In this document: positions 2,485 through 22,729 of the stretch, piece after piece | Layout of the letters: every line of letters starts with the position of its first letter | How positions within the stretch are numbered: position 1 is the stretch's first letter | Virus record (IMG/VR): IMGVR_UViG_3300034061_001626 | Location: 1-27,204 of that record | Strand: one strand, 5' to 3' | DNA length: 27,204 nucleotides | Source of the DNA: a virus | Translations under genes and position numbers: made by a program | Notes under the pieces: generated by a model | What the model was told of the DNA's origin: nothing | Seen by the model: the letters and a program-made list of their open reading frames with translations, nothing else | Databases searched by the model: none

Positions 2485-5400
2485 ATGGCTCTAAATTTTA
2501 ATGTCGATCCGTATTTTGACGATTTTGACCCAACAAAGAATTTTCATAGAATATTATTCAAGCCAGGATTTGCAGTTCAAGCAAGAGAACTAACACAGGC
2601 TCAAACTATTCTACAAAATCAAATTAGTAACTTTGCCGACCATATTTTCACACAAAATTCTCCTGTTTCTGGTGGTAAAGTAACAACGAATCTGAATAAC
2701 TATTATCTGAAATTAAATTTAACAACACCAATTGGCGAAGAAGTTGTTGCTGAAAATTTTCTTAATAAAGATATTCAAGATGCTGAAGGAATAGTGAGAG
2801 CAAAAGTAATTGCAACAACAGAAGCTTCTCAAGCAGATCCACCAACTCTATATGTTTCGTATTATTCTGGTGTACAATTTTCTGATGGAGAACAAATATT
2901 CTGTACCGACGGATCAAATTTTACAGCAACAACAATAGATTCTAATAGTACTGGAAAAACATCCACAGCTTCTATATCTCAAGGTATTTTTTACATTGTA
3001 AATGGATACAACTTATCCTCTACACCTAATCCGGATGGTACATTTACAAAATATTCAATTGGGCATTTTGTTCAAGTTTCACCACAAACAATTGTTCTAG
3101 ACAAATATAGCAATACCCCATCATATCGTATAGGTCTTTCTATCACAGAAAGCATTGTTGATTATATCAATGATCCTTCTCTTTTAGACCCTGCTGTTGG
3201 CGCATCAAACTATCAAGCGCCAGGTGCAGATAGATTTAAAATTAGCTTAGATTTAACCTCATTACCTTTAACTTTAGGTAACGATGATCAATTTATAGAA
3301 TTGGTTAGAATAAGCAATGGTACTGTCATTAAACAAGTAGATGGTAGTGTTTATTCTGTTATCGATGATTATTTTGCAAAAAGAGACTATGAAAGTAACG
3401 GAGATTATATTGTAAATGACTTTAAACTGACACCATCTTCAAATACAGTTAACCCAGCACAATATGATTTAAAAATTGGTAAAGGCCTTGCATATGTCCA
3501 TGGTTATAGAATTGAAAACCAGTCGGATGTAGTTTTAGGAGGTATTAGTAGAGCTAGAACTACAGAAAACATAAACAATAATGCAGTCTATATTGATTAT
3601 GGTAGCTATCTAACTGTAACATCTGCAAACGGAATATTTGATGTTACTACGATGCCAGTAATTGACTTACATTGTACACCAAACAGTGATATTATAACAA
3701 CAAATACAGCAACATATTCTTCGACTTTAGTTGGTTCTGCTCGTATTAGAAACATACAATATAATAGTTCGGGTTCTAATGCTAACACTCCATCATATGT
3801 TTATAAAGCATACATTTCAGATATTAATACTACAAATTTAAACGGAGTTGTTTCTTCAGGAACACCAACAACCATCAGTTTCTCTGGTACCGGTGCTGGA
3901 GGTAAATTCTCTACTGCCGCAAATGCGTATTATGGAGCAACAATTGCACTCACTAGTGGTACAAGTGTAGGTGATATTAGAAGAATCGTTTCATATAATG
4001 GTGCAACAAGAACAGCAACCGTAGATGCACCATTTACGGTTACGCCAGACAATACGACTAATTTTAGTTTGAAGTTTTCAACTTCAATCGTAGACTCCAT
4101 TGTTGCTAGAAATAGTAGTAATGTGATTATTGCTACAGCAGACATTGCCAATGCAGGAAAAGTAAGCGGTGTTGCTTCTGGTGATACCATACTGGAAAAT
4201 CCAACTGCTCCAGAAATGCTTTTCCTTGTTGGTTATCCTTATGTTGCAAACATTGCTAATAGTGATTATGTTTCAACTAAAGTATTCAGAGCAAAAACAT
4301 TTACTGCGTCAGGTGGAAACTTTGTTTTAACAATCACTATTCCTAGTGGTACTCCATTGACCTTCTTGGGAACAGGAACATTATCTGCTGATGTTATTAA
4401 ACAAAACTTTACTGTTATCAATAAAACAACAGGAAAAATATTAGATTTCTGTTCTGCTGGACAAACTGTCGCCTTGTCTCTAGATAAGAAAACAGTTACC
4501 TTCACAACAAATACTTATGGTGGTGTGATTGTTGATGTCATTGCAGCAGTTAATGTTGCAAATGCTGATAATGTTACCAATGTATTGAAAACAAAGAATC
4601 TTGTTACTGGTAATACAACAGTGGCAAGTATTGCTGGACCTGATGGAATAATTAACAATACTTATATTGATTTAACTAAAGGTCAAGTATACATTAAAAA
4701 TTCGGATATTGGGGCGATAACTTCTTTATATGTTTCTGATGTGAAGAAAATCAGAAAAATTATTGATACAAAATCACCAGGCACGGCAGCAACAGATGCA
4801 ATGTTGACCAATTCTGCTTTTGATATAACACGCCTATTCCAATTAGACAATGGACAAAGAGACAATTACTATGATCATGCGGCACTAAATCTTGTTGCTG
4901 GTGCAAACAAACCAGCAGGAAATATTTTAGTCATATTTGATTATTATTCACATACGGGTGGTGATGGATATTTTGATGTCAATTCATATCTTGCTCCTAT
5001 TTCTACATCACCAGAATATTATGAAGAAATTGCTACCTATTTAAGCACAAATGGAACAACATATCAACTTTCTGATTCATTAGATTTTAGACCAGTCAGA
5101 AAGAATGCACAAGCAGCATTCATATTCAACTATACAGGAAATCCTGCTGTTGATGATAGTGGTATTTTAATTCCACAGAACCTGAGCGAATATGTTAGTG
5201 ATTACGATTATTATTTAGGAAGAAAAGACAAACTCGTATTAACTAAAGATAGATCCTTCGTAATGATTCCGGGAACTCCTTCAGTTAACCCTGTGTTTCC
5301 CAAAGAACCTGATGGGTCACTCGTACTAGCAAATCTTACTTATGATCCATACACTGCTTATGTTCCGGGAGAAGTTCCTAATGGTGGACAACCTGATCTG

Positions 5401-7902
5401 TCAATAGAAAAAATTGTACATAAAAATTGGATCAAACGAGACATCACCGATCTACAAACCCGTGTCAATGATTTAGAATATTATACTTCATTGAGTCTAT
5501 TAGAAACTAATGCACAATCTTTGCAAGTTCCTGATGTTAATGGATTAAACAGATTCAAGAATGGTATTCTTGTTGATGACTTTTCATCTTTTTCTACCGC
5601 AGACACAGCAAACAAAGATTTTGGTACAAAGATTAACACTACTAAGAAAAGATTAAGCCCAATAAGCACAATTGATAATTATCAGTTACAAAATCCTATT
5701 GTTCTAAATTCTTTAGGAACACTAAAAACATTTAACAATTTAGCCGTTTCCAGTATTAATGGTACAGGAACTAATATATTCACTTTACCATATACTTCAG
5801 CAAATGTTGTTACACAATCTCTAGCGAGTTCTGTGGTTAGTTTAAACCCATTTAATGTTGTTGAATATGAAGGTGTTGCAACTATTACTCCACCTATGGA
5901 TAACTGGGTTGATAATAGCCAAGCTCCTGATTTATTGATAGTTAATCCGGGAACACAAATCTATCAGCAAACAAATGGCGTTAATGTAACTAATGCTGGT
6001 GATTGGACTACCATTCCGGGAACATCGTACAGTACAACTTCGACCACTACAGCAACAACAGGTAGAGCAACAGTAACAACCACAACAACACAAGCATATT
6101 CTGATCAAATAAGAAATATAACAACCGCAGGAAGCTATGCTCAAGTATCATCAACAACTGGATTTAATAATGGTTATTTAACAAATGTTTCTATTTTACC
6201 ATATATCAGACCTCAACAGTTGATATTCAAAGCAGAAGGATTATTAGTTAATAGTCCAGTTTCTACTTTCTTCGATGGCGTGAATGTTGATAACTATATT
6301 ACATCTCCAAATACTATTGAATTAACTAGTGTTAGTGGAACATTCAGTGAAAACGACATTGTAGGATTTTATTATAGCAACAAATTTAATCCTATTGGTC
6401 GTGTGGTATCAATATACAGATACCCATCAACAAATAGAGTTAGATTGTATATTGCAAACCTATTAGGCGCACCATCATATTCACCAACAAATGTTGTTCA
6501 AAATGCGTTCTTCAATTCTTCTGGAACATATACATCAACTAGTGCAAGTGGAACGATAAACACATCAGCAGCGACCGCTAGATTGTCAACCTCTGGTGTT
6601 TTAAGTGGTGTTGGTGGAAGTTATAATAATACAATTACGAGTGGATTACAACTCTATAAAGTTCAAAACTCCACTGGTTGGGGAACATTCTTAAATCAAT
6701 ATGGTGTTTGGGGAGACCTAAGAGCTTCAGCCTCATACTCTGCAACTTTTGCTGTTGATCCTGAAGTAGCTGGAACATATAAAATTCAAGTTTCTTCTTC
6801 TGGTGCATACACATTAACTGCTAATGGTTCTACTGTAGCATCCGGTTCTGCAAATCCGACATCAGTAAACCAAGTGAACTATACACTATCATCAGCACAA
6901 TTAGGAGTTTTAACTCTTGCATGGTCTGTAACTGGTTCTCCTGGACCTTCTGGAATTGGTGTTGTAGTTAAAGATCCTTCAGATCAAATAGTTTTTGCTT
7001 CTACTGCTCCAACAAACTTAGCATATGATAGTGTTGCTCAACAAGTTGTTATGCCTGAAGGTGGTGCATGGTTCACTGGAGTAACAAAGGTTAAGTTAGA
7101 TGGCAATGCAGCAAATGTTGCTAACTATTATGTGGGAACAAAAATTAGTGTTACCTCAACCTATGTGTATGCTTATACAACTCAGACAGCAACTTATGTT
7201 CCTCCACCAACACCACGCCGAGCAGGAGGAGGAGGTTGCTTCATAGAAGATACTTTAGTTCTTCTAGAAAATGGAGAAACTAAGAAAATTTCTGAAGTTC
7301 AAATTGGTGAAAAAGTATATAACTGGAATAAAACAAAAATTAACACAGTAACTTTTGTCGAAAAAACTTTAGATGATAAATTTGAAGCAATTTATTCGGT
7401 GAAGAAAAAAGAGAAACCTTTTGCAACCATCAATCATCCACTGTATATTGATGGTGAATTATCCAGTCCAATTTCAGAAAAAGTTTATGAAATGTATCCT
7501 TGGTTAGGTAAAGCAAAACAAATTGAAGCAGGAAAGACAATACCCGCACAAGGAAAATTAGTATACAATCTATGGGTAGACGGAGATGGCACATATCAAG
7601 TCAATGGATATGGTACTACATCAATTATTGGTGAAGGTGGTGTTCTTCGTAAAGTAACCGAAAGAGAAATGATAACTTCAGAAAGAGCATCTGAGCTATT
7701 ATTTAAGTTTACCGATGAAGGAAAAAATCTTGCGTATGGAGCATATTTGTTAAATAATTATTTTGGTAAACTAGATATTGGATTAATCAACTCAATACTA
7801 GTTAGAGCATTCAAAAATGATGAAAATAAATTTACTCAAAAATCAGTAATGTTGTTATTTAAGATTTTTGGAAAATTGGCTTGTATTGTCAATGGTAAAT
7901 AA
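2485..7902 (+). CDS. DUF4815-like giant virion structural protein with C-terminal Hint domain
   Basis: A protein of 1,805 residues preceded by AGGA at 2476-2479. The N-terminus (VDPYFDDFDPTKNFHRILF, then GFAVQARELTQAQTILQNQI) is the hallmark of DUF4815-type structural proteins found beside baseplate genes of aquatic T4-like phages. A GEEVVAEN small beta module sits at residues ~83-150. The middle holds many Ser/Thr/Asn-rich beta segments and a DFRPVRK element near 869. Residues ~1180-1215 are a run of Thr and Ser. The structural part ends in PPPTPRRAGGGG (residues 1573-1584). It is followed by a Hint domain starting at Cys1585 (CFIEDTLVLLENGE), with T1648-I-N-H1651, and a further ~90-residue helical tail. 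The following gene looks like the missing second half of this family. The N-half probably belongs to the baseplate periphery or fibre network (inference from gp8 linkage). No transmembrane segment or signal peptide is evident. Confidence 0.8.
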   Translation: MALNFNVDPYFDDFDPTKNFHRILFKPGFAVQARELTQAQTILQNQISNFADHIFTQNSPVSGGKVTTNLNNYYLKLNLTTPIGEEVVAENFLNKDIQDAEGIVRAKVIATTEASQADPPTLYVSYYSGVQFSDGEQIFCTDGSNFTATTIDSNSTGKTSTASISQGIFYIVNGYNLSSTPNPDGTFTKYSIGHFVQVSPQTIVLDKYSNTPSYRIGLSITESIVDYINDPSLLDPAVGASNYQAPGADRFKISLDLTSLPLTLGNDDQFIELVRISNGTVIKQVDGSVYSVIDDYFAKRDYESNGDYIVNDFKLTPSSNTVNPAQYDLKIGKGLAYVHGYRIENQSDVVLGGISRARTTENINNNAVYIDYGSYLTVTSANGIFDVTTMPVIDLHCTPNSDIITTNTATYSSTLVGSARIRNIQYNSSGSNANTPSYVYKAYISDINTTNLNGVVSSGTPTTISFSGTGAGGKFSTAANAYYGATIALTSGTSVGDIRRIVSYNGATRTATVDAPFTVTPDNTTNFSLKFSTSIVDSIVARNSSNVIIATADIANAGKVSGVASGDTILENPTAPEMLFLVGYPYVANIANSDYVSTKVFRAKTFTASGGNFVLTITIPSGTPLTFLGTGTLSADVIKQNFTVINKTTGKILDFCSAGQTVALSLDKKTVTFTTNTYGGVIVDVIAAVNVANADNVTNVLKTKNLVTGNTTVASIAGPDGIINNTYIDLTKGQVYIKNSDIGAITSLYVSDVKKIRKIIDTKSPGTAATDAMLTNSAFDITRLFQLDNGQRDNYYDHAALNLVAGANKPAGNILVIFDYYSHTGGDGYFDVNSYLAPISTSPEYYEEIATYLSTNGTTYQLSDSLDFRPVRKNAQAAFIFNYTGNPAVDDSGILIPQNLSEYVSDYDYYLGRKDKLVLTKDRSFVMIPGTPSVNPVFPKEPDGSLVLANLTYDPYTAYVPGEVPNGGQPDLSIEKIVHKNWIKRDITDLQTRVNDLEYYTSLSLLETNAQSLQVPDVNGLNRFKNGILVDDFSSFSTADTANKDFGTKINTTKKRLSPISTIDNYQLQNPIVLNSLGTLKTFNNLAVSSINGTGTNIFTLPYTSANVVTQSLASSVVSLNPFNVVEYEGVATITPPMDNWVDNSQAPDLLIVNPGTQIYQQTNGVNVTNAGDWTTIPGTSYSTTSTTTATTGRATVTTTTTQAYSDQIRNITTAGSYAQVSSTTGFNNGYLTNVSILPYIRPQQLIFKAEGLLVNSPVSTFFDGVNVDNYITSPNTIELTSVSGTFSENDIVGFYYSNKFNPIGRVVSIYRYPSTNRVRLYIANLLGAPSYSPTNVVQNAFFNSSGTYTSTSASGTINTSAATARLSTSGVLSGVGGSYNNTITSGLQLYKVQNSTGWGTFLNQYGVWGDLRASASYSATFAVDPEVAGTYKIQVSSSGAYTLTANGSTVASGSANPTSVNQVNYTLSSAQLGVLTLAWSVTGSPGPSGIGVVVKDPSDQIVFASTAPTNLAYDSVAQQVVMPEGGAWFTGVTKVKLDGNAANVANYYVGTKISVTSTYVYAYTTQTATYVPPPTPRRAGGGGCFIEDTLVLLENGETKKISEVQIGEKVYNWNKTKINTVTFVEKTLDDKFEAIYSVKKKEKPFATINHPLYIDGELSSPISEKVYEMYPWLGKAKQIEAGKTIPAQGKLVYNLWVDGDGTYQVNGYGTTSIIGEGGVLRKVTEREMITSERASELLFKFTDEGKNLAYGAYLLNNYFGKLDIGLINSILVRAFKNDENKFTQKSVMLLFKIFGKLACIVNGK
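7237..7641 (+). other. Hint (hedgehog/intein-type) autoprocessing domain, residues ~1585-1719
   Basis: The domain begins at Cys1585 right after a glycine run. The opening CFIEDTLVLLENGETKKI with IGEKVYNWN matches intein block A (Cys, T-x-V, then a G-D/E-x-V turn). Block B is present as T1648-I-N-H1651-P, the TxxH motif that promotes the N-S acyl shift. A block-F-like strand follows (YNLWVDGDGTYQVNGYG, residues 1694-1710). The usual block F His/Asp position appears to be Gly1702. The block G His-Asn pair is missing: the aligned residues are Thr1712-Ser1713, and no Cys/Ser/Thr extein splice junction is evident. At about 130 residues it is a minimal Hint fold with no room for a homing endonuclease. 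By family knowledge, such a domain could form a thioester at Gly1584-Cys1585 and then be released by hydrolysis or by attack of another nucleophile, as in Hog or bacterial intein-like domains. Splicing is unlikely. Confidence 0.85.
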
Positions 7903-7925: not shown

Positions 7926-10118
7926 ATGGCTTACACTTATAAAGTAGAACCAACAGAGTATCTAAAAGAAACATCTACTGATGTTGCAACTGTAACGGCT
8001 TATGATAATATAAACAAAATCGTAACTTTAGATACTCCTATTAATGTATCTCTTGGTTATAATAGTAAAGTTGGAGATGTTACTTCTCAATATAATTTCA
8101 TAGGAAGCACAGTCACAACAATATCGCAGGCATTACAACTAGGAAATACTGTCTCTAAACTTTCTACTGATGAAGCAGGAAATTTTGTCGGTGTTTTTAA
8201 TGTTCCTGGTGGAGTTTTTCAAACGGGAACAAGAGTTTTTAGAGTGGATAATAGATCAGTACCTACTGATCCTACAACAGCAACAACATTCGCTGAAGCA
8301 TCGTTTACGGCATCTGGACTCTCAACAACTTCACAAAAGTTAGAATTTGCTCCATCGATTGACTCTGCTGCCACTGCCTTCACACAAGTTAGTCAGAGAC
8401 AGAATCAGTTAATTCAAACGAGCATTATTCAAACTGTAACTTATCGTGATCCTATTGCTCAAAGTTTTATTATTGAAAAAGTTAACTTCCCAAATGGATT
8501 ATTTCTTCGTTCAGTAAAAGTATTCTTTCAATCAAAACCAACAACTAATATCCCAGTTACTCTATCAATTGTTGGAACATTGAATGGATATCCTAATGGT
8601 AAAAAATTAGATTATTCTACTGTAGTATTAAATGCTAATCAGGTTGTTACATCACAAAATCCACATTATCTGGATGCGTCAACCTATACTGAGTTTGTAT
8701 TCAAGGCTCCAGTTTATATTCAAGGTGATGTGCTTTATGCGATTATGCTACAATCAAGCAGTGCAGATTATAGAGCGTACTATGCTCAACAAAATTCTAT
8801 TGCCGTGGCATCTACTGCAAAGGCTTTACCAACAGATCCTAACCCAAGTAACCCATCAAAAATTGGTCAAACACCATATGTTGGTGCATTGTTTGAATCA
8901 CAAAATGCAATAACTTGGACAGCAGATCAAAGCAAACAACTCATGTTCGTTATTGATAGATGTGTGTTTAATACTTCCGTAACACCTACTATTCAGTTTT
9001 CTATACCAAAAGGATTACCGTATAGAAAACTTGGAAATCAAGACATTCAATATACACTTGATGCTAACACAGTTACGAATTTGTATGGAAATTCTGGAAC
9101 AACAACTTGGTCAGATGCTATTAACTTAACTACAACAGATTTCATACCTACTAGCACCAATATTGGATATAGTTACACTAATATTCTTGCTGCTGGTAAT
9201 GTACCTGTTGGACCATTCTCAGCAACTCCAGGAAAATTAGGTTCTCCAACAACAGACGATATCACATTTGATGATGGTAAAGGACAGAGAGCATTGATAA
9301 GCACAATCAATGATACTTTCTCAATGTATGCTACTCTATCTTCAAGTGATCCTAATGTTAGTCCAATCGTTTCTGATGATGGTGTAACCGTATATAATGT
9401 CAGAAACATTATCAATAATATGGGAATTTCAAATAATGTTATATCAGTAGCAAATACTGGTTCGGGATATACTGATGCAACAAACACATCAATCACGATT
9501 AGTGCTCCAGATATAGGTTCTGATCCTGCTGTTCTTGGATTTACTGTTGCTAATAATGGAACATCAAATGTAATTTCTTCCGTCTATGTTACATACGAAG
9601 GTTCTGGATACATTACCACACCGACTATTACAATTACTGGTGCGAATACAAGTCCAGCAAATGTTGTTGTATATGGTGAAACTTCAAATCGTGGAGGAAA
9701 CTCATTCGCAAGATACTTTACGAAGAAAGTTGTGTTGACACCAGGAAATGATTCGGGAGACCTAAGAGTTTACTGTACTGTGTACAAACCTTTTGGTACA
9801 GGAATCTATGTGTACTACAGAATATTAAATAGAAATGATACTCAAGTATTTGAAGATGGTAATTGGAAACTGATGACCCAAGTAGGTAATCCTAATGTAT
9901 TCTCATTAGCTAAAGATAACTTGATTGAATATGAGTTTGCTCCAGGAGTAGATAATGTAGCAGACAATTACATTTCTTATACAAGTACAAATGGTGAAAC
10001 ATATACTCAATTCAGTCAATTTGCTATTAAAGTTGTATTCTCGTCAGATGATAGTACAAAAGTTCCTTATCTGACAGACATTCGTGCATTGGCTCTACCA
10101 TCAGGAACAGGAATCTAA
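7926..10118 (+). CDS. Structural protein resembling the C-terminal half of the DUF4815-type family
   Basis: A 730-residue protein starting 23 bases after the Hint-bearing gene. A weak GGGAAG lies at 7916-7921. Landmarks are LSTDEAGNFVGVFNVPGG at about residues 79-96, GTRVFRVDNR near 100, FAEASFTASGLSTTSQ near 122, RDPIAQSF near 174, LFLRSVKVFFQSKPTTNIP with NGYPNG at about 195-224, and ALPTDPNPSN near 299. As I recall, this DPxAQSF / SVxxFFxxKP / NGYP string normally lies downstream in the same polypeptide as the DUF4815 N-terminus in related phages. I therefore read it as a separately encoded second half. Residues ~500-590 carry two GSGY repeats like those inserted in gp8. The C-terminal ~130 residues (RVYCTVYKPFGTG, YVYYRILNRNDTQVFEDGNW) form a further beta domain ending VPYLTDIRALALPSGTGI. 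A baseplate-peripheral role is inferred. Confidence 0.75.
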   Translation: MAYTYKVEPTEYLKETSTDVATVTAYDNINKIVTLDTPINVSLGYNSKVGDVTSQYNFIGSTVTTISQALQLGNTVSKLSTDEAGNFVGVFNVPGGVFQTGTRVFRVDNRSVPTDPTTATTFAEASFTASGLSTTSQKLEFAPSIDSAATAFTQVSQRQNQLIQTSIIQTVTYRDPIAQSFIIEKVNFPNGLFLRSVKVFFQSKPTTNIPVTLSIVGTLNGYPNGKKLDYSTVVLNANQVVTSQNPHYLDASTYTEFVFKAPVYIQGDVLYAIMLQSSSADYRAYYAQQNSIAVASTAKALPTDPNPSNPSKIGQTPYVGALFESQNAITWTADQSKQLMFVIDRCVFNTSVTPTIQFSIPKGLPYRKLGNQDIQYTLDANTVTNLYGNSGTTTWSDAINLTTTDFIPTSTNIGYSYTNILAAGNVPVGPFSATPGKLGSPTTDDITFDDGKGQRALISTINDTFSMYATLSSSDPNVSPIVSDDGVTVYNVRNIINNMGISNNVISVANTGSGYTDATNTSITISAPDIGSDPAVLGFTVANNGTSNVISSVYVTYEGSGYITTPTITITGANTSPANVVVYGETSNRGGNSFARYFTKKVVLTPGNDSGDLRVYCTVYKPFGTGIYVYYRILNRNDTQVFEDGNWKLMTQVGNPNVFSLAKDNLIEYEFAPGVDNVADNYISYTSTNGETYTQFSQFAIKVVFSSDDSTKVPYLTDIRALALPSGTGI

Positions 10119-10342: not shown

Positions 10343-13303
10343 ATGGCTAATACAGTTACTTTATTAAGTTATGCCAATACTTTTGGGGATTGGGTAGTTA
10401 CAACAAACAAGCTTGCACAAGAAAATAATGACTTTGCAGCAAACAACTTTGTAAAACCTACAGGAACATTATTTCTTAGTTCTCCTAGTCTCGGTCTACA
10501 AGTAGCAAACAATGCTGTTATTCAAGGACAGCTTCAAGTTTCTGGTGTTGGTTCATCTGTCTTTATTCAAAAGAATATGCAGATTGATGGTCAAATCATA
10601 GGAGCATCAAATAATTATTTCATAGCAAATGACAGCAACAATATATTCAATATCACACAATCAGGTTCTGGTCTAGCATTACGCATCAATAGTCAACCTG
10701 GTGGTTCGGGAACAGCAGGACAAAATACAACTGTAATTGATGCGAATGGTAATGTGTATATTGGCTCTGCATCAGCAGGAACATTCAAATTAAATGTTGC
10801 TAATGGTAATGTAAACTTTGCACAGAACCTTACGGTAGGTTCTAATATCACTTCACAGATAGTTCGTACAACAAATCATGTTGTTTCAAAAGATGTTACT
10901 GCTTCTGCGAATGTCTTGGGTGATAGAATTCAAGCAAATACGAACTTAATATCTCCAACTCTAGCAGTTAGTGGTGTTGCATACATCAACTATGTTCAAG
11001 CAAACACAGCAGTAAATACTGCGATTGCTACTGTTGATACAATTTATGCTGCTATACATATAAATTCCCCTACGATAACTGCAACAAACAATGTTATTGG
11101 TGATATAGTATCTGGTAACACTAGAGTGGTTTCACCATCTATATTAGGAACAACCAGTGTAGTTGGTGGAGTGATATTTGCTAACACTCATATAAGTTCA
11201 AATACAGTAACAGGATCAAACAATGTAATTGGAAACATTGTTTCTGGTAACACTAGGGTTATTTCTCCTACAGTTATAGGCATATCTTCTGTTACTGGAA
11301 ATCTAATCACTGCAAACTCTACAGTAGTAACACCATTATTAACAGTAACAACTAGAGTGGATGCGAATACAGCAGACATATATGTCCGTGATGTAATTGC
11401 TAATACAATATCAGTTCAAGGTAATTTTATTGTTAGTGGAAATACAGTATATAATTCTGATATTTTAACTATTAATGCTGATGCGGCGGTACCCACAACT
11501 GGAACATTTGCGTCATCTAGAGGGTCGGGAAATGCTAACGCTGAAATAAGATGGAATGAATTGCAAGATTATTGGGATATTCGTGATGTAAATAATCCTT
11601 CAAGCTATTCTAAAATACTAACAGCAAATTTAATTAGTGATTCTACTGTATTAGTAAGCTCAGATAATCTTGCAAGTTCTAGATCAGTAAATTATTTACA
11701 AAATGTTGCCAACACTCAAAATTCTGCAATTTCTGCGGGTAATACTTTTGCACAAATGGCATCTTTTACTGCCAATGCTGCATGGATTGGTGCCAATACT
11801 GCTAATACTAATGTCGCATCAGTCAACACCTTTGCTAATATGGTTGCATTCACAGCCAATCAAGCATGGATAGGTGCTAATACAGCTAATGGTAACATAA
11901 GTGCTTTACAGGCACAAATGACTACCACAAATACAAATATTGCCTCCACTAACACCTTTGCAGCAGCAGCCTTCAATAGAGCAAACACAGGAACTCTTGC
12001 ATCAAATACATTTGTTGGTACTACTGGTATTGCAACACCCAGTATTGGTGTAATATCTTTCAGTAGTAACAATGGTGTTACTGTATATGGTTCTTCAAAT
12101 GTACTGAACATTAGCACATCACAAGATTTAAGAACTACTGCATCACCAACATTTGCTGGATTAACTCTTTCATCTCCTCTTGGATTATCACAAGGTGGTA
12201 CTGGAGCAACATCAGCATCGAGTGCTTTAACAAACATATTACCAACAGGAACAACTGCTGGATATGTTCTGACAACTGGTGGACCAGGAAACTTCTATTG
12301 GTCAGCATCAGGTGGTGGGGGTGGTGGAGCTACACCAGGAACAACCATCAACTCAACAAGACTGTCTTATACTGCATCGGGTACACAAGTAACCTATACA
12401 ACACCGACATTCTCTGCGGCTACACAGTTAAGAGCATATATTAATGGTGTTAGACAGTTTGAATCAGAATATAGTGTAAATATTTCAAACTCTACGATTT
12501 CATTCTCTGTCGCACCTGTACTAAACGATGCAATTCTACTTGAAGTGGATGGATTTATCAATAATCCATACTATGCAAACAATATTGCATATACTATTAA
12601 TGCTGACATTTCAAGTACAGCTAATACGATTCAGTTAGCTATCGATGGATTAACATCTAAATTAACTACATATTATGCTAATACGAATGGTGGCACACAA
12701 ACATTCACTAATGTTGTGCTTGCACCAACACCAACAATCAATAGTTCTACTGGAAATACACAGGTAGCCACTACAGCGTTTGTCAACAACAAAGCAAACT
12801 CTGGTGTAACATTCTCACATAGCATCACTGGCTCTGCTGGTTCTGTAGCTAACACTGGAATTATTGGAGCAGTTGGACCTACAATAACAGATGATACCAC
12901 AAATTCTGGTGCTAGATATGTAACATTTACGACACAAACTTCTGGTACACAAACAATTGCTAATGTTTCTAGTAGCAAATTAACCTTTGAGCCATCGACA
13001 GGTACTTTGTCTGCTACAGTAATGACTTCAACTTCAGACGAAAATCTGAAAGAAAATATTGTTGAAATTTCTAATGCGTTAAATACTGTAATGAGACTAA
13101 AAGGTGTTGAGTACAATTGGAAAGATACTGGAGAAAAAGGTATGGGTCTGATTGCTCAAGATGTTGAGAAGATTATTCCGTACCTCATAGCAGAAAACGA
13201 AAATGGAAAATCTGTCATGTATCAAAACATGATTGGATTATTAGTTCAAGCAATTAAAGAGTTAAAACAAGAAATAGACAGATTAAAGGGTGATAACAAA
13301 TGA
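10343..13303 (+). CDS. Long tail fibre with C-terminal S74 intramolecular chaperone domain
   Basis: A 986-residue fibre, rich in Asn, Thr, Ser, Val and Ala. The first ~350 residues contain tandem beta repeats (VIGDIVSGNTRVVSPS and VIGNIVSGNTRVISPT). Residues ~456-552 hold the NTFA-x-x-A-x-F-x-AN type repeat. A Gly6 linker lies near 657, followed by a LNGV-type beta module (RAYINGVRQFESEYSV, about residue 699). The C-terminal ~93 residues are a Peptidase S74 (endosialidase-type) chaperone domain with a Ser898-Asp-Glu-Asn-Leu-Lys903 dyad, then GVEYNWKD, MGLIAQDVEKIIPYL, and a terminal trimerising helix (AIKELKQEIDRLK). In this family the domain folds the trimeric fibre and then self-cleaves just before the serine. 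The mature fibre should therefore end near residue 897. The stop overlaps the next ATG (13300-13303). It is a likely receptor-binding protein, but the receptor is unknown. Confidence 0.88.
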   Translation: MANTVTLLSYANTFGDWVVTTNKLAQENNDFAANNFVKPTGTLFLSSPSLGLQVANNAVIQGQLQVSGVGSSVFIQKNMQIDGQIIGASNNYFIANDSNNIFNITQSGSGLALRINSQPGGSGTAGQNTTVIDANGNVYIGSASAGTFKLNVANGNVNFAQNLTVGSNITSQIVRTTNHVVSKDVTASANVLGDRIQANTNLISPTLAVSGVAYINYVQANTAVNTAIATVDTIYAAIHINSPTITATNNVIGDIVSGNTRVVSPSILGTTSVVGGVIFANTHISSNTVTGSNNVIGNIVSGNTRVISPTVIGISSVTGNLITANSTVVTPLLTVTTRVDANTADIYVRDVIANTISVQGNFIVSGNTVYNSDILTINADAAVPTTGTFASSRGSGNANAEIRWNELQDYWDIRDVNNPSSYSKILTANLISDSTVLVSSDNLASSRSVNYLQNVANTQNSAISAGNTFAQMASFTANAAWIGANTANTNVASVNTFANMVAFTANQAWIGANTANGNISALQAQMTTTNTNIASTNTFAAAAFNRANTGTLASNTFVGTTGIATPSIGVISFSSNNGVTVYGSSNVLNISTSQDLRTTASPTFAGLTLSSPLGLSQGGTGATSASSALTNILPTGTTAGYVLTTGGPGNFYWSASGGGGGGATPGTTINSTRLSYTASGTQVTYTTPTFSAATQLRAYINGVRQFESEYSVNISNSTISFSVAPVLNDAILLEVDGFINNPYYANNIAYTINADISSTANTIQLAIDGLTSKLTTYYANTNGGTQTFTNVVLAPTPTINSSTGNTQVATTAFVNNKANSGVTFSHSITGSAGSVANTGIIGAVGPTITDDTTNSGARYVTFTTQTSGTQTIANVSSSKLTFEPSTGTLSATVMTSTSDENLKENIVEISNALNTVMRLKGVEYNWKDTGEKGMGLIAQDVEKIIPYLIAENENGKSVMYQNMIGLLVQAIKELKQEIDRLKGDNK

Positions 13304-14574
13304 CAACGAAAGTAACGGGTTCGGTACTTGCAAATACAAGTGTTGTAGCAGGAACATACGGAACTGCTTCTCAAGTCCCAATTATTACGATTGATGCACA
13401 AGGTAGAATTACCAGTGCAACAGCGGCTACTGTTTCTGGTGCTGGTGCAGGTGTTGGTGCAACAAGCTATACTGTAACTAAGTTCACTGCAACTGCTGGA
13501 CAAACAGTATTTACCGTAAACTATACTGTTGGATATGTACAAGTATATCTAAACGGTGTTCTGTTAGATTATGCGACAGACTTTACTGCATCTAACGGTA
13601 CAAGTATTACACTAGCTACTGCTGCTGCATTAGATGATATTATCACTGTCTATGCTTTCTCTGTCAGTGCCGTGGCTAACATTACTGGTGGTGCAGCAGG
13701 TGCTGTACTGTATCAATCAGCAGCTAATACTACTTCTAATACTGATGTTGGAACATCAGGACAACTGTTAGTGAGTGGTGGTTCAGGTAAACCTGTGTGG
13801 ATTGCACAGACTGCTTTGAGTATTGCGAATACTAAGATTACTGGTTTGATTACAAGTCCACAAATTGCAACTGTAGCAAATACTCAGATTACTGGTTTGA
13901 TTACAGGACCACAGATTGCTCCTTCAGCGATTCCTGCTGGCGGATTTAGTAATATATCAGTAATTACAAACACAGCACCAGGACAAACTTGGACAGCACC
14001 ACCAACGACTACTAAAGTTAAAGTTACTGTGGTTGGAGGTGGAGGTGGATCCGGCGCATCGAGTGCAAGCTGCGGCACACGAGGCAACGGTGGAGGAGGA
14101 GGTGGAGGTGGAACTGGTATCCGGATAATTCCTGTGGTTGGTGGTACGCCATATCCTGTTGCTGTTGGAGCTGGTGGTACGGCTTCGCCACCATCGGGTT
14201 CGGGCGGCACAGGAGGAACAAGTAGCTTTGGTTCTCCAGCTTTAGTTAGTGCAACAGGAGGTGCCGGCGGTACCCCCGGCACCGGTGGCGGCTGCGCCTT
14301 CCCAGGATTTGGTGGAACGGGCGGAATAGGATCTTCGGGAGATTTAAATGCCGCTGGTGGCGGAGGTGGGCGTGGTGATGCGGTAGGTAACAGCTTTCCC
14401 TCACTCGGCGGCATGGGAGGAGGTACTTCTTTAGGTGGAGCGGCGGCGGCGACCACGGGCCCGGCATCAGCAGGTAGAGCTTATGGTAGTGGTGCAACAG
14501 CAGCCGGCGGGCCATTCCCTGGGCCGGGTCCGGTAGCTGCTGGTGCCTCCGGAGTAGTCATAGTAGAATGGTAA
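13300..14574 (+). CDS. Glycine-rich tail fibre tip/adhesin protein
   Basis: A 424-residue protein whose ATGA start overlaps the stop of the S74 fibre, so the two are probably translationally coupled. Residues ~8-48 carry a GTYG...PIITIDAQGRITSAT module also seen in the 1,087-aa fibre and in diverged form in the 812-aa fibre. Residues ~60-125 form a beta module with QVYLNGVLLDYATDFT. Two copies of the ITGLIT...PQIA repeat follow at about 176-212. From about residue 245 the protein becomes extremely Gly-rich (VVGGGGGSG, GGGGGGGGTG, several GGTGG and GGAGG blocks), with a few Cys, Pro and aromatic residues. It ends in GVVIVEW. Polyglycine tip domains recall the T2/T6 gp38-type adhesins and other fibre tips that hold specificity loops on a glycine scaffold (family knowledge; homology not established). 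The Gly-rich part is far more GC-rich than its neighbours; 14281-14340 is about 63% GC by hand count. Confidence 0.75.
   Translation: MTTKVTGSVLANTSVVAGTYGTASQVPIITIDAQGRITSATAATVSGAGAGVGATSYTVTKFTATAGQTVFTVNYTVGYVQVYLNGVLLDYATDFTASNGTSITLATAAALDDIITVYAFSVSAVANITGGAAGAVLYQSAANTTSNTDVGTSGQLLVSGGSGKPVWIAQTALSIANTKITGLITSPQIATVANTQITGLITGPQIAPSAIPAGGFSNISVITNTAPGQTWTAPPTTTKVKVTVVGGGGGSGASSASCGTRGNGGGGGGGGTGIRIIPVVGGTPYPVAVGAGGTASPPSGSGGTGGTSSFGSPALVSATGGAGGTPGTGGGCAFPGFGGTGGIGSSGDLNAAGGGGGRGDAVGNSFPSLGGMGGGTSLGGAAAATTGPASAGRAYGSGATAAGGPFPGPGPVAAGASGVVIVEW
13825..13955 (+). repeat. 131-bp direct repeat, copy 1 (fibre tip linker)
   Basis: This segment codes for two ITGLIT...PQIA units and the SAIPAGGFSN linker of the 424-aa protein. 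It is closely similar, at the same length and with no gap, to 14915-15045. Most of the differences are single bases. Confidence 0.85.
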
Positions 14575-14854: not shown

Positions 14855-15598
14855 ATGGCAGTCAATAGAAATTTAGGTGGCTTTGCGGCTTCTGCAAACA
14901 TCTCTGGTTTTGTAGCGAATACTCAGATTACTGGTTTGATTACAGCACCACAGATTGCTTCGGTGGCAAACACTCAGCTTACTGGTTTGATCACAGCACC
15001 ACAGATTGCTCCTTCAGCGATCCCTGCGGGCGGATTTAGTAATATGCAGGTGTTTACTTCTCCAGGAGCATTCACAACACCACCAACGACTACCAAATTA
15101 AAGGTTACTGTGATTGGTGGAGGTGGTGGAGGGGGCGCAGCGCCGGGACAATTAGGTGGCTGCGGCAGTCAAAATGGTGGTGGAGGTGGAGGAGGAACTG
15201 CAATAAGAGTTACTACTGTCACAGCAGCAACACCATATCCTGTCTCAATTGGCTCAGGAGGAACAGGATGGTCTCCGCCTTCTGGTGTTGGAGGAGCTGG
15301 AGGAACATCATCATTCGGTAGTTTAGCGAGTGCTACTGGCGGCAGTGGAGCGACTCTTTTAGCCGGAGGTGCTGGTGGAACAGGTAGTATTCCTGGAGCT
15401 ACAAATTGTGGTTTCACAATACCAGGAGGCCGGGGTGGGTTCCTGTGCCTGAGCCAGGCGTCTGGAGGAGGAAGCTTCTTTGGTAACGGCACTGCCGGCT
15501 CGCTGTCGCCGGGAGCGGCGTCAGTCTACGGTAACGGTGGTGCAGGTTCGACCACACCTACAGCAGGAGCGGCTGGGATTGTTGTAGTAGAATGGTAA
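14855..15598 (+). CDS. Second glycine-rich tail fibre tip/adhesin-like protein
   Basis: A 247-residue paralogue of the C-terminal part of the 424-aa protein, with GGAG at 14844-14847 as ribosome-binding site. After a short leader (MAVNRNLGGFAASANISGF) it has two NTQxTGLITAPQIA repeats and the SAIPAGGFSN linker. Then comes a strand (TTTKLKVTVIGGGGGG) and a polyglycine domain with the same layout as its paralogue: a Cys-containing turn (GGCGSQNGGGGGGGTAIRV), TPYPVSIGSGG, GGTSSFGS, then variable loops, ending GIVVVEW. It lacks the N-terminal beta modules of the longer paralogue, so it may be an alternative tip or a stand-alone adhesin docking on a shared fibre. The conserved frame with differing loops (LCLSQASGGGSFF here) fits a receptor-specificity role (inference). 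Confidence 0.75.
   Translation: MAVNRNLGGFAASANISGFVANTQITGLITAPQIASVANTQLTGLITAPQIAPSAIPAGGFSNMQVFTSPGAFTTPPTTTKLKVTVIGGGGGGGAAPGQLGGCGSQNGGGGGGGTAIRVTTVTAATPYPVSIGSGGTGWSPPSGVGGAGGTSSFGSLASATGGSGATLLAGGAGGTGSIPGATNCGFTIPGGRGGFLCLSQASGGGSFFGNGTAGSLSPGAASVYGNGGAGSTTPTAGAAGIVVVEW
14915..15045 (+). repeat. 131-bp direct repeat, copy 2 (fibre tip linker)
   Basis: Second copy of the segment at 13825-13955. It again codes for the ITGLIT...PQIA units just before the glycine-rich domain. The two copies are 1,090 bases apart (start to start) in the same orientation and flank the 424-aa tip domain plus the 78-aa gene. Confidence 0.85.
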
Positions 15599-19465: not shown

Positions 19466-22400
19466 ATGTCAAATACAACGATACAGTTAAAAAAATCAGG
19501 ACAATCAGGGAATACGCCAGCTGACCTAAATTACGGTGAGGTGGCGATTAACTACGCCGACGGAAAACTGTTCTATAAGAATGGTGTTGGTATTAAATCA
19601 ATTGAAAACCAAAAAACATTTTCAACGATTAATGCCAACAACTCACTGATTATTGCAACTACACCAACAGATATTTTATCTTTGGTTGCTGGTTCAAACA
19701 TCACAATTAATTCCAACACAACAACAAAAACTGTTACGATTAATTCAATTAGTGATGACACTGTAGCGTTCGCTGCATATGCTCAAGCGAATACCGCAGC
19801 AGCAAATACCGTTTATCTAAATGCTGTTAACGATCTTCAAAACACTAACATTACCAGTGTTAATACATTCACTCAAGCAGCATACAACAAAGCAAATAAT
19901 GCATTAGCAAATACGGCAGGTGCTATATTTGGTGGTGATTTATTAATTGGTGCAGGAGGAAAACTAAATGTACTAACAGTTGGGGGTGATGAAGGTGGAG
20001 AAATTCTACTAGGCAAAGCAGTATCCAATACTACACTAGATGGTGTTGGTGTAACAATTGATGTTTATCAAAATAAAATAAGATTTTTTGAACAAGGTGG
20101 CTCTGCCCGAGGATTTTACTTAGATATTTCTACGGGCGGAGGTGGTGCTTCTACCAATATAATGTCTGGAGGTGGAGGCGATGATACGGTAGCGTTTGCT
20201 GCATACGCACAAGCAAACAACGCATCAGGCAACACCGTGGCTTTACAGTCACAGATGACTACAACAAACACCAATATTACTAGTGTTAATACATTTACTC
20301 AGGCAGCATTTAATACAGCCAATACAGCAGCATCTAATACAATATATTTACAAACAGTAAACGATAATCAAAACACTAGTATATCTGCAATTGATACCCT
20401 AGCTACTGCTGCCTACGGTAAAGCGAATGCTGAGGGTGAGATTAATAATACTCAAAATACCAACATTACTAGTATTAACACCTTTACTCAAGCAGCATAC
20501 AATACAGCAAACTTAAAATTTAATACTTCTGGTGGTACAATAACAGGAAACACCACAATACAACAGAATCTTGTTGTTGAAGGTGATTTGAGTGTACTAG
20601 GTAATTCTGTTACGATTGGAACTTCAAGTTTAGTTGTTGAAGATTCGTTAATATTCTTAGCTAATGGAAATATAACCACTGATGCTGTAGACATAGGTGT
20701 AGTAGGCCAGTATAATCCAGGATCAGGATTAGAGCATACTGGTATATTCAGAGACCCAAATTTAAAAGAATGGATATTATTTCAAGGTTATACTCCCGAA
20801 ATTCTGTCTAATACCTTAATTAATTTTTCTAATCCCAGCTTTAGATATGCTAATCTATATGCAAATGTAGTAAAGTCAAATGTAATTTCAAGTTATATTA
20901 GAGTAAATGGTCTTGATGTAAACAACACAATGACCAATGCTTGGAACTCCGCAAATGCTGGAGTAGCCTTAGCAACAGCAGCATATGTTGCAGCAAACAC
21001 TGCACAAGCAACACCTAATGTAAGAGGTATTTCATCATCCGGCACTTATTATCCTATTTTTGTTGATTCAAATAATGCTGTTGCAACAGCAGAATCTCTT
21101 TACACTGATGGTGGTCTTAGTTATGATCCTGCCACAAATTTCTTGACTGCGGGTTTTTTCATTGGACCAATTAGTGGTACCACAGGAAGTTTTTCTTCAT
21201 ATGTTCAAGTAACCGGCGATAATGATTATGTTGCATGGGGTGCAAATACTGACACTAGAATGATGTATAATGGAACTGCAAACACTATTAATTTGCAGAT
21301 GCAATTTGATGCTACAAGTTTTGACATTGACTATTTTAATGGTGTAACTAGTGCAAATAAGTTTAGATTCTATAGAGCAAATGGTGATTTTCAAATATTT
21401 GATGGAGGCATTGTTTTCCGTGATGGTACTAAACAGAATACAGAAACACTGACCATAGCAACTGCTGCCTATGCTCAAGCCAATAATGCTTCTGGTAATA
21501 CAGTAGCACTACAAGCAGTTAATAGTACACAGAACACAAATATAACTTCGGTTAATACCTTAGCAACTGCTGCTTATGGTCAAGCCAACGCAGCAAGTTC
21601 TGTTAATAGCACACAAAATACCAATATTACTAGTGTCAATACTTTTGCTCAAGCAGCATATAATGAAGCAAATGGTGCAGTACAAACAGGATTTACTACA
21701 ATATCTGCAAATGCGGTTTCAATTACACCAGCAAGTAATGCAGACACTTTAACGATTTCTGCTGGCAATAATATCTCTATTTCTGCATGTACGACCACAA
21801 AAACAATTACAATAAGCTCTACAGCAAGTGGTGGTGGAAGTAGTGGAGGTTTCACTTACAATACAACACCACCAGCATCAGGAAACACCGCAGGAGATCG
21901 TTGGGTAGATAGTGATGATGGTACATTGTACACCTATGTGAATGATGGTAATTCATCTCAATGGGTAGATTTTAGTACCTCTGCAACTTCTTCTTCTGTT
22001 GGTGGTGGTGCAGCAAATGCTATCTTATATCAAGCAGGAGTAGGAAATACAACATTTACTTCCGTCGGCACTCAAGGTCAACTATTAATGGCGGGTGTTG
22101 GTGGTGTTCCTATTTGGGCCGCTCAGACAGCATTGCGTATTGCCAATACTCAGATTACAGGATTGATTGCTTCAGCACAACTATCAAATACAGCAGTAAC
22201 AACTGGAACATATGGTGGTTCAACTGCAATTCCTGTTATTACAGTTGACCAACAAGGTAGAATAACAGGTGCGGCAAACGCTAATATCACATCTGGAACA
22301 ACCATCACTAATGAAACAGCAAGTGGTTCTACATATTATCCTATAGTTACTGTTGCAACTTCGGGTTCTATTTCTGTCGCCAATGTTTCGAGTACAAAAC

Positions 22401-22729
22401 TTACTTATGTTCCATCTACTGGTACATTATCTTCTACCATTATTACATCAACATCAGACGAAAAACTAAAAGAAAATATTGTTACAATTTCTAATCCTAT
22501 AGATACTATTAAGAAACTGAGAGGAGTAGAATATAATTGGAAAGATAATGGTAACAAGAGTATGGGTGTTATTGCTCAAGAAGTTGAAAAAGTTCTACCT
22601 TATCTTGTGTCAGAGAACGAAAATGGAAAAACAGTTATGTATCAAAACATGATAGGACTATTAATTGAAGCAGTCAAAGAACAACAAAAACAAATTGATG
22701 AGTTAAGAGGTAAATTAGATGCCAATTGA
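19466..22729 (+). CDS. Long tail fibre with MTD-like N-terminus and S74 chaperone C-terminus
   Basis: A 1,087-residue fibre. The GGAAG at 19451-19455 inside the previous gene's GGSF codons can serve as Shine-Dalgarno site. The N-terminus (IQLKKSGQSGNTPADLNYG, then EVAINYADGKLFYKN) is the MTD-type fibre head. Repeated ITSVNTFTQAAYNxAN / AYAQANNASGNTVALQ units occur at about residues 100-145, 245-290, 310-352 and 665-735. A VEDSLIFLANGN / DIGVVGQYNPGSGLEHTGIFR module (about 390-435) is shared with the 812-aa fibre. A GDRWVDSDDGTLYTYVNDG module sits near 808. The GTYGGSTAIPVITVDQQGRI module precedes the end. The C-terminus is an S74 domain with Ser997-Asp-Glu-Lys-Leu-Lys1002, GVEYNWKD and MGVIAQEVEKVLPYL. 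Cleavage is expected just before Ser997. The end overlaps the next gene by 11 bases. Confidence 0.88.
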   Translation: MSNTTIQLKKSGQSGNTPADLNYGEVAINYADGKLFYKNGVGIKSIENQKTFSTINANNSLIIATTPTDILSLVAGSNITINSNTTTKTVTINSISDDTVAFAAYAQANTAAANTVYLNAVNDLQNTNITSVNTFTQAAYNKANNALANTAGAIFGGDLLIGAGGKLNVLTVGGDEGGEILLGKAVSNTTLDGVGVTIDVYQNKIRFFEQGGSARGFYLDISTGGGGASTNIMSGGGGDDTVAFAAYAQANNASGNTVALQSQMTTTNTNITSVNTFTQAAFNTANTAASNTIYLQTVNDNQNTSISAIDTLATAAYGKANAEGEINNTQNTNITSINTFTQAAYNTANLKFNTSGGTITGNTTIQQNLVVEGDLSVLGNSVTIGTSSLVVEDSLIFLANGNITTDAVDIGVVGQYNPGSGLEHTGIFRDPNLKEWILFQGYTPEILSNTLINFSNPSFRYANLYANVVKSNVISSYIRVNGLDVNNTMTNAWNSANAGVALATAAYVAANTAQATPNVRGISSSGTYYPIFVDSNNAVATAESLYTDGGLSYDPATNFLTAGFFIGPISGTTGSFSSYVQVTGDNDYVAWGANTDTRMMYNGTANTINLQMQFDATSFDIDYFNGVTSANKFRFYRANGDFQIFDGGIVFRDGTKQNTETLTIATAAYAQANNASGNTVALQAVNSTQNTNITSVNTLATAAYGQANAASSVNSTQNTNITSVNTFAQAAYNEANGAVQTGFTTISANAVSITPASNADTLTISAGNNISISACTTTKTITISSTASGGGSSGGFTYNTTPPASGNTAGDRWVDSDDGTLYTYVNDGNSSQWVDFSTSATSSSVGGGAANAILYQAGVGNTTFTSVGTQGQLLMAGVGGVPIWAAQTALRIANTQITGLIASAQLSNTAVTTGTYGGSTAIPVITVDQQGRITGAANANITSGTTITNETASGSTYYPIVTVATSGSISVANVSSTKLTYVPSTGTLSSTIITSTSDEKLKENIVTISNPIDTIKKLRGVEYNWKDNGNKSMGVIAQEVEKVLPYLVSENENGKTVMYQNMIGLLIEAVKEQQKQIDELRGKLDAN

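Follow-up and report, generated by a model that had tools for sequence, protein, structure and literature searches.

A C-terminal Hint module on a VrlC-type baseplate protein and on other tail proteins of uncultivated phages

Hint domains are known for protein splicing (inteins), lipid attachment (Hedgehog proteins) and the release of secreted domains (BIL and pretoxin proteins). What such a domain might do at the end of a phage baseplate protein is the question raised by a viral DNA sequence from IMG/VR (record IMGVR_UViG_3300034061_001626), whose positions 1 to 27,204 are analysed here as one stretch of 27,204 nucleotides, called the window. Searches of PMC full text under open licences turned up no account of a Hint domain with a role in a phage tail, and the passages on Hint domains in the phiCbK and CBB papers deal with terminase and ribonucleotide reductase inteins or with Rak2-like terminases, not with tail proteins. 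UniProt-derived names already include 'Hint domain containing protein [uncultured Caudovirales phage]'. While fold and chemistry are familiar, the literature searched does not describe this phage family, the proteins it is fused to, the Hints inside VrlC proteins or the probable tail role.

The baseplate giant and its C-terminal module

The giant protein of the window carries a DUF4815 domain (Pfam, E 1.1e-57), its residues 3-1362 align with positions 5-1293 of phrog_358 (profile match, E 1.5e-238), and its stop codon lies at 7900-7902. VrlC is encoded by two genes here, with the Hint located at the split. The relevant features are as follows.

2485..7902, + strand: VrlC/DUF4815 N-terminal part and Hint module, 1805 aa, with DUF4815 and phrog_358 matches
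6733..7005, + strand: beta-sandwich core of the pre-Hint segment, PA14-like (a sugar-binding fold); best Foldseek match 6m8m, E 1.3e-5
7201..7236, + strand: low-complexity linker PPPTPRRAGGGG, whose last residue, Gly1584, is the predicted scissile residue
7237..7638, + strand: Hint domain proper, module residues 1-134, from Pfam, AlphaFold, Foldseek and the family profile
7237..7239 (TGC), + strand: Cys1585 (module Cys1), predicted thioester nucleophile
7360..7362, + strand: Glu1626 (module Glu42)
7426..7437, + strand: block B Thr1648-x-x-His1651 (module Thr64 and His67; codons ACC at 7426-7428 and CAT at 7435-7437)
7564..7605, + strand: block F strand YNLWVDGDGTYQVN, with Gly at the block F His position (His in 11 of 62 relatives)
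7618..7623, + strand: Thr1712-Ser1713 where the C-terminal His-Asn of inteins and BILs belongs (block G); no C-terminal cleavage predicted
7639..7899, + strand: C-terminal extension of 87 aa, basic, with five predicted helices (AlphaFold model)
7926..10118, + strand: second gene, encoding the C part of this VrlC protein (phrog_358 positions 1300-1628, E 9.2e-95)
8448..8468, + strand: DPIAQSF motif, the site of Hints in the VrlC of other phages

Because the genes around VrlC encode a baseplate wedge subunit, Ad2 and Hc2 neck proteins, a sheath stabiliser and tail fibres (with gp8-, gp13/14- and sheath-stabiliser-like products), the setting is that of a T4-like tail module, and the profile match together with this context identifies the giant as a VrlC/DUF4815 baseplate protein. 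VrlC/DUF4815 is a baseplate protein of pelagi- and cyanomyophages and corresponds to TmpG of Twort-like phages (PMC7029224); in the window this protein is represented by the first 1,360 residues of the giant together with the product of the following gene. The DUF4815 part also matches 1,486 cultured phage records (tblastn, 320-aa query), annotated as VrlC, TmpG or adsorption-associated tail protein. Compared with these cultured proteins, however, the window protein is split over two genes and has a Hint at the end of the first, a module found in no cultured VrlC relative.

In the same tail cluster, two tail-fibre genes (10343-13303 and 19466-22729) end in S74 endosialidase-type chaperone domains, S74 being another C-terminal domain type known for self-cleavage. 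Two Gly-rich fibre-like genes (13300-14574 and 14855-15598) have common stretches around ITGPQIAPSAIPAGGFSN and are probably paralogues.

The first-pass annotation had proposed that this T4-like baseplate giant ends in a Hint domain with intact-looking N-terminal chemistry, and the frame, the coordinates and the residues are as claimed, including the PRRAGGGG immediately before Cys1585, the block B residues and the block F strand. Three Pfam models (Hint, Hom_end_hint and Vint) recognise the C-terminal piece, with E values from 2.6e-5 to 3.4e-4; the window module stays below the curated cut-offs (Vint, 20.9 bits against 27), whereas some relatives pass that of Hint (L023, 29.9 bits against 29.7) or of Hom_end_hint (L005, 36.5 against 32.1). 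The best PDB match of the family profile is the BIL of C. thermocellum (2lwy, E 1.8e-4). An AlphaFold model of the module, built from an alignment of 27 relatives, reaches a pLDDT of 94.7 and matches 23 Hint-fold chains of the PDB at E ≤ 0.001 in Foldseek, led by BIL2 of Tetrahymena BUBL1 (6y75, 2.5e-7) and followed by Vint (1.3e-6), the gp41-1 intein (1.6e-5), the C. thermocellum BIL (9.5e-5) and Hedgehog (3.1e-4). The Vint of T. thermophila (8r2c) has the Hint fold in common with the module, as the weak Pfam match also indicates, but no VWA domain was found in the phage protein and the C-terminal part differs. The fold, the N-terminal Cys of block A and the TxxH of block B are those of the HINT superfamily, and, judged from the profiles and the predicted model, the Hint match is more than chance. 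The proposal is thereby borne out by Pfam, the family profile, the structure prediction and the baseplate context.

N-terminal thioester chemistry looks intact in the module, as had been suggested, because no relative that covers these positions, down to about 33% identity, deviates at Cys1, Thr64 or His67. With the His-Asn of block G missing, splicing and C-terminal cleavage would be impossible, and therefore only N-terminal chemistry possible. Inteins end in His-Asn followed by Cys, Ser or Thr; in the window module Thr-Ser replaces His-Asn and there is no C-extein, which rules out protein splicing by sequence. Measured against the VrlC locus L001, dN/dS is about 0.18 in the Hint part (dN 0.149, dS 0.848) and about 0.08 in the VrlC core (dN 0.094, dS 1.172), and it is low in the C-terminal tail as well (dN 0.119, dS near saturation). 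By these rates the Hint is under purifying selection, clearly constrained though less strictly than the VrlC core.

The Hint domain had been drawn over the C-terminal ~220 residues, of which the Hint proper takes up about 134; the last 87 are a separate helical extension, conserved across partner proteins too, with a hydrophobic last helix. This tail is left unaccounted for by the known folds because the best Foldseek matches span only about 130-175 alignment columns, and searches of Pfam and the PDB gave it no match outside the family. On the other side of the linker, the AlphaFold model of the pre-Hint segment (A2, mean pLDDT 46) is mostly at pLDDT 58-88 in residues 97-187 and below 50 in the remainder; being poor outside the beta-sandwich core, it was used for the PA14-like core only. 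According to this model, a sugar-binding PA14-like domain would sit beside the predicted thioester.

The module family and the internal Hints

Two scans of viral contigs gave 37 and 70 loci, which yielded 62 distinct modules. Where these positions are covered, Cys1 is present in 60 of 60 modules and Glu42, Thr64 and His67 in 61 of 61 each, and the complete module is C-terminal in every ORF that is uncut by a contig end. Residue -1 is Gly in 33 of the 62 and the linker varies as well, so that no particular extein appears to be needed. The placement on one giant protein, as first described, holds for the VrlC case and understates the spread: besides VrlC giants, the partners include gp5-like hub proteins (L030, L067, L069, L074 and L080), collagen-like and Gly-rich fibres, small proteins beginning like MATPVTFTLYNNSST, and others. 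A tree of 57 modules with 11 partner labels calls for at least 13 partner changes. Exactly one complete C-terminal module was found in 44 of the 47 contigs searched (21 and 23), the other three having internal Hints only, a count to be read with the caution that the set may include incomplete contigs and near-duplicates. That the module is conserved, moves between tail proteins and is found once per contig points to a function under selection.

The family was seen almost only in uncultivated phages. Modules from the window, L017 and L032 had no match at E ≤ 0.01 in a tblastn search of 50,697 phage records, and the one match among prokaryote genomes of 84,980 species is a short phage-like contig in a MAG. 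In phages whose gp5-like hub carries the module, the VrlC/DUF4815 giant is encoded in a single frame (2016-2032 aa), and the two of these giants that were inspected show no Hint start.

Beside the C-terminal kind of Hint described at first, the VrlC family has a second kind, arranged in internal arrays. VrlC giants with one to four Hints inside are found in L107 (523-9579, 3,019 aa), L104, L115, L116, L118, L119, L123 and L126-L129; in L104 (one Hint) and L107 (four) VrlC is unsplit, with the C part, a separate gene in the window, joined to the N part. One or more extra Hints also lie ahead of the C-terminal module in L024, L027, L028, L045, L061 and L075. With the internal Hint of L104 as query, 19 cultured phage records were found, including Hints on tail proteins of the Achromobacter phages JWF and 2-1.

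Internal Hints have Arg, Thr, Pro or other residues at the position of Glu42 and terminate in His-Asn followed by Lys (21 of 21 in the first set), often directly before the next Cys. They are BIL-like, of type A, ending in His-Asn without a Cys, Ser or Thr after it as in the bacterial BIL (2lwy), whereas the window module lacks the His-Asn end. An invariant Lys after His-Asn as a rule for an isopeptide nucleophile was considered and dropped because Arg takes this place in a few further loci (L115, L123 and L126); another list of internal Hints, selected on His-Asn-Lys, is no evidence for such a rule.

In the VrlC of about a dozen contigs, the Hint array or single Hint stops just before DP(L/I/V)(A/S)Q(T/S)F. 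In the VrlC loci with a C-terminal module, the downstream gene begins at or near the DPLAQTF motif in about 11 of 18 cases (e.g., MKPIGQTF), and in the window it begins 174 residues before DPIAQSF. Since internal arrays and downstream gene starts both fall at a DPLAQTF-type motif, the Hints of the two architectures sit where the N part of VrlC meets the C part, and separate N and C parts fit both architectures because the split gene often starts at the (DPLA)QTF site of internal Hints. Trans-ligation to the product of the ORF at 7926-10118 was also considered and is unlikely, as this product starts with MAYTYK and has no N-terminal Cys for joining in the style of native ligation.

Cleavage, transfer and other readings

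Attack of a Cys on the preceding residue to form a thioester is established Hint chemistry. In the mechanism that we infer, the last 221 residues would be an autoprocessing Hint module in which His1651 and Thr1648 assist the attack of Cys1585 on the Gly1584-Cys1585 bond (an N-to-S acyl shift). The 1,584-residue VrlC part would become a thioester on Cys1585, and water, a thiol or another nucleophile would resolve it, parting VrlC from the module. The conserved basic helical tail would probably set when, where and with what this happens, as the extension does in Hedgehog-type Hog domains.

The best explanation, which we hold with moderate confidence on the strength of the residues and the model, is that the module is cleaved from VrlC during tail assembly or maturation; we rank it ahead of transfer to a defined nucleophile. 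That BIL domains give mostly cleaved products (PMC7664689) counts for it, as do the purifying selection, the frequent change of partners with a single module per contig, the variable linker, and the gene starts of split VrlC at the site of internal Hints. Against it count that VrlC works without a Hint in cultured phages, where the absence of the module is taken from null tblastn searches, and that the block F His is mostly Gly. The mere removal of a dispensable tag is also hard to reconcile with the family, because the 87-residue tail is strictly conserved and each contig has a single copy.

The second reading is covalent transfer as in Hog or BUBL proteins, in which the helical tail or the PA14-like domain supplies a defined amine or hydroxyl that attacks the thioester; we regard it as possible, though tentative. 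Its outcome, equally tentative, would be a bond between the C-terminus of a tail protein and a lipid, a host-surface group or a second tail protein. The nearest solved fold, BIL2 of BUBL1 (6y75, 6tmm; TM 0.65 by target length), speaks for it, as Tetrahymena BIL2 creates isopeptide bonds at Lys and attaches one protein to others (PMC8616854). Cys1 and the block B His are common to both, but BIL2 keeps its C-terminal Asn and lies between two ubiquitin-like domains, whereas the phage module has lost His-Asn, has a helical tail and is located on tail proteins. Swappable N-terminal parts, the loss of the C-terminal splice site and a conserved extension behind the Hint make up the layout of Hog (1at0), a likeness of architecture only, as the fold match is weaker and the phage extension has no sequence match to that of Hog. 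The PA14-like core adjoining the Hint and the hydrophobic, membrane-like segment right before Cys1 in L005, L014, L044, L046, L070 and L085 point the same way, but the acceptor is putative and most of the model behind the PA14 match has low confidence. Glu42 lies near Hedgehog Asp46 by eye only; the hhalign match to Hedgehog stops at residue 30, and the C. thermocellum BIL also has Glu at this position, so that an equivalence of the two residues is suggestive by eye and unsupported by alignments. The fuller picture, in which a phage-restricted, portable, Hog-like Hint family with one copy per phage activates the C-terminus of a tail protein as a thioester and passes it to a nucleophile on another tail part or the host surface (for covalent linkage or adsorption), while related internal BIL-type Hints (His-Asn-Lys/Arg) process VrlC elsewhere, seems to us slightly more doubtful still.

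That the released module, Hint and basic helical tail together, is itself the active product, working on or inside the host once the tail has delivered it, like the C-terminal cargo of spike proteins or Hint-released domains, is unlikely. The C-terminal position on the gp5-like hubs and other tail proteins, the single module per contig and the basic tail with its hydrophobic last helix would suit such a payload. Searches of Pfam and the PDB, however, matched the helical tail to nothing beyond the family, and this tail is conserved across partners, whereas pretoxin-Hint systems of polymorphic toxins carry a variable toxin domain behind the Hint.

It is improbable that the module is a passive appendage, the remnant of a mini-intein or BIL whose C-terminal splice site was lost once the gene had split: BIL-type Hints inside VrlC just before DPLAQTF in other phages, near the gene break, recall such an origin, but the catalytic residues are invariant where covered, dN/dS is low, and the module has a conserved new tail and many unrelated partners besides VrlC. 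Least probable is a Hint fold serving only as a cap, trimerising or chaperone domain, as C-terminal domains of phage fibres often do and as the S74 domains of the window might recall, since a pure scaffold has no need of invariant Cys1, Thr64 and His67.

Modules at the ends of so many tail proteins suggest an undescribed way to cut or covalently join tail parts. A conserved, portable module that forms a thioester on baseplate and spike proteins would add a new maturation step to tail assembly, or it would give the phage a means of covalent attachment to its host. The module may also serve protein engineering as a partner-tolerant, N-cleaving Hint.

Sequences beside the Hint in other loci

Asn-Cys repeats (NCNCNCNC or NCNCDCNCNC) stand directly before the C-terminal Hint in tail proteins of an uncultivated phage (L017:7026-10893) and of Achromobacter phages JWF (L110:8065-11586) and 2-1 (L132:2071-5577). 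Two genes past each of them lies a radical-SAM protein, 43-44% identical over 447 aa, and tail protein and radical-SAM protein together look like a peptide-modification cassette in one uncultivated and two cultured phages. Radical-SAM-like genes with a CxxxCxxC motif also lie no more than a few kb from the Hint gene in the non-VrlC loci L005, L008, L014, L037, L046, L061, L070 and L085; the same motif revealed none in the window or around VrlC-Hint loci. In L005, L008, L014, L044, L046, L070 and L085 the Hint Cys directly follows a hydrophobic, membrane-like segment (for example, GGGGGGWDIIPILLIIAGIGE then CF); in most cases a Gly-rich stretch precedes this segment, which recalls C-terminal sorting signals. 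Many VrlC forms have Cys-rich peptides (CGCG or CC, then CF) right before the Hint Cys (L006, L011-L013, L016, L050, L079, L115, L123 and L127-L129).
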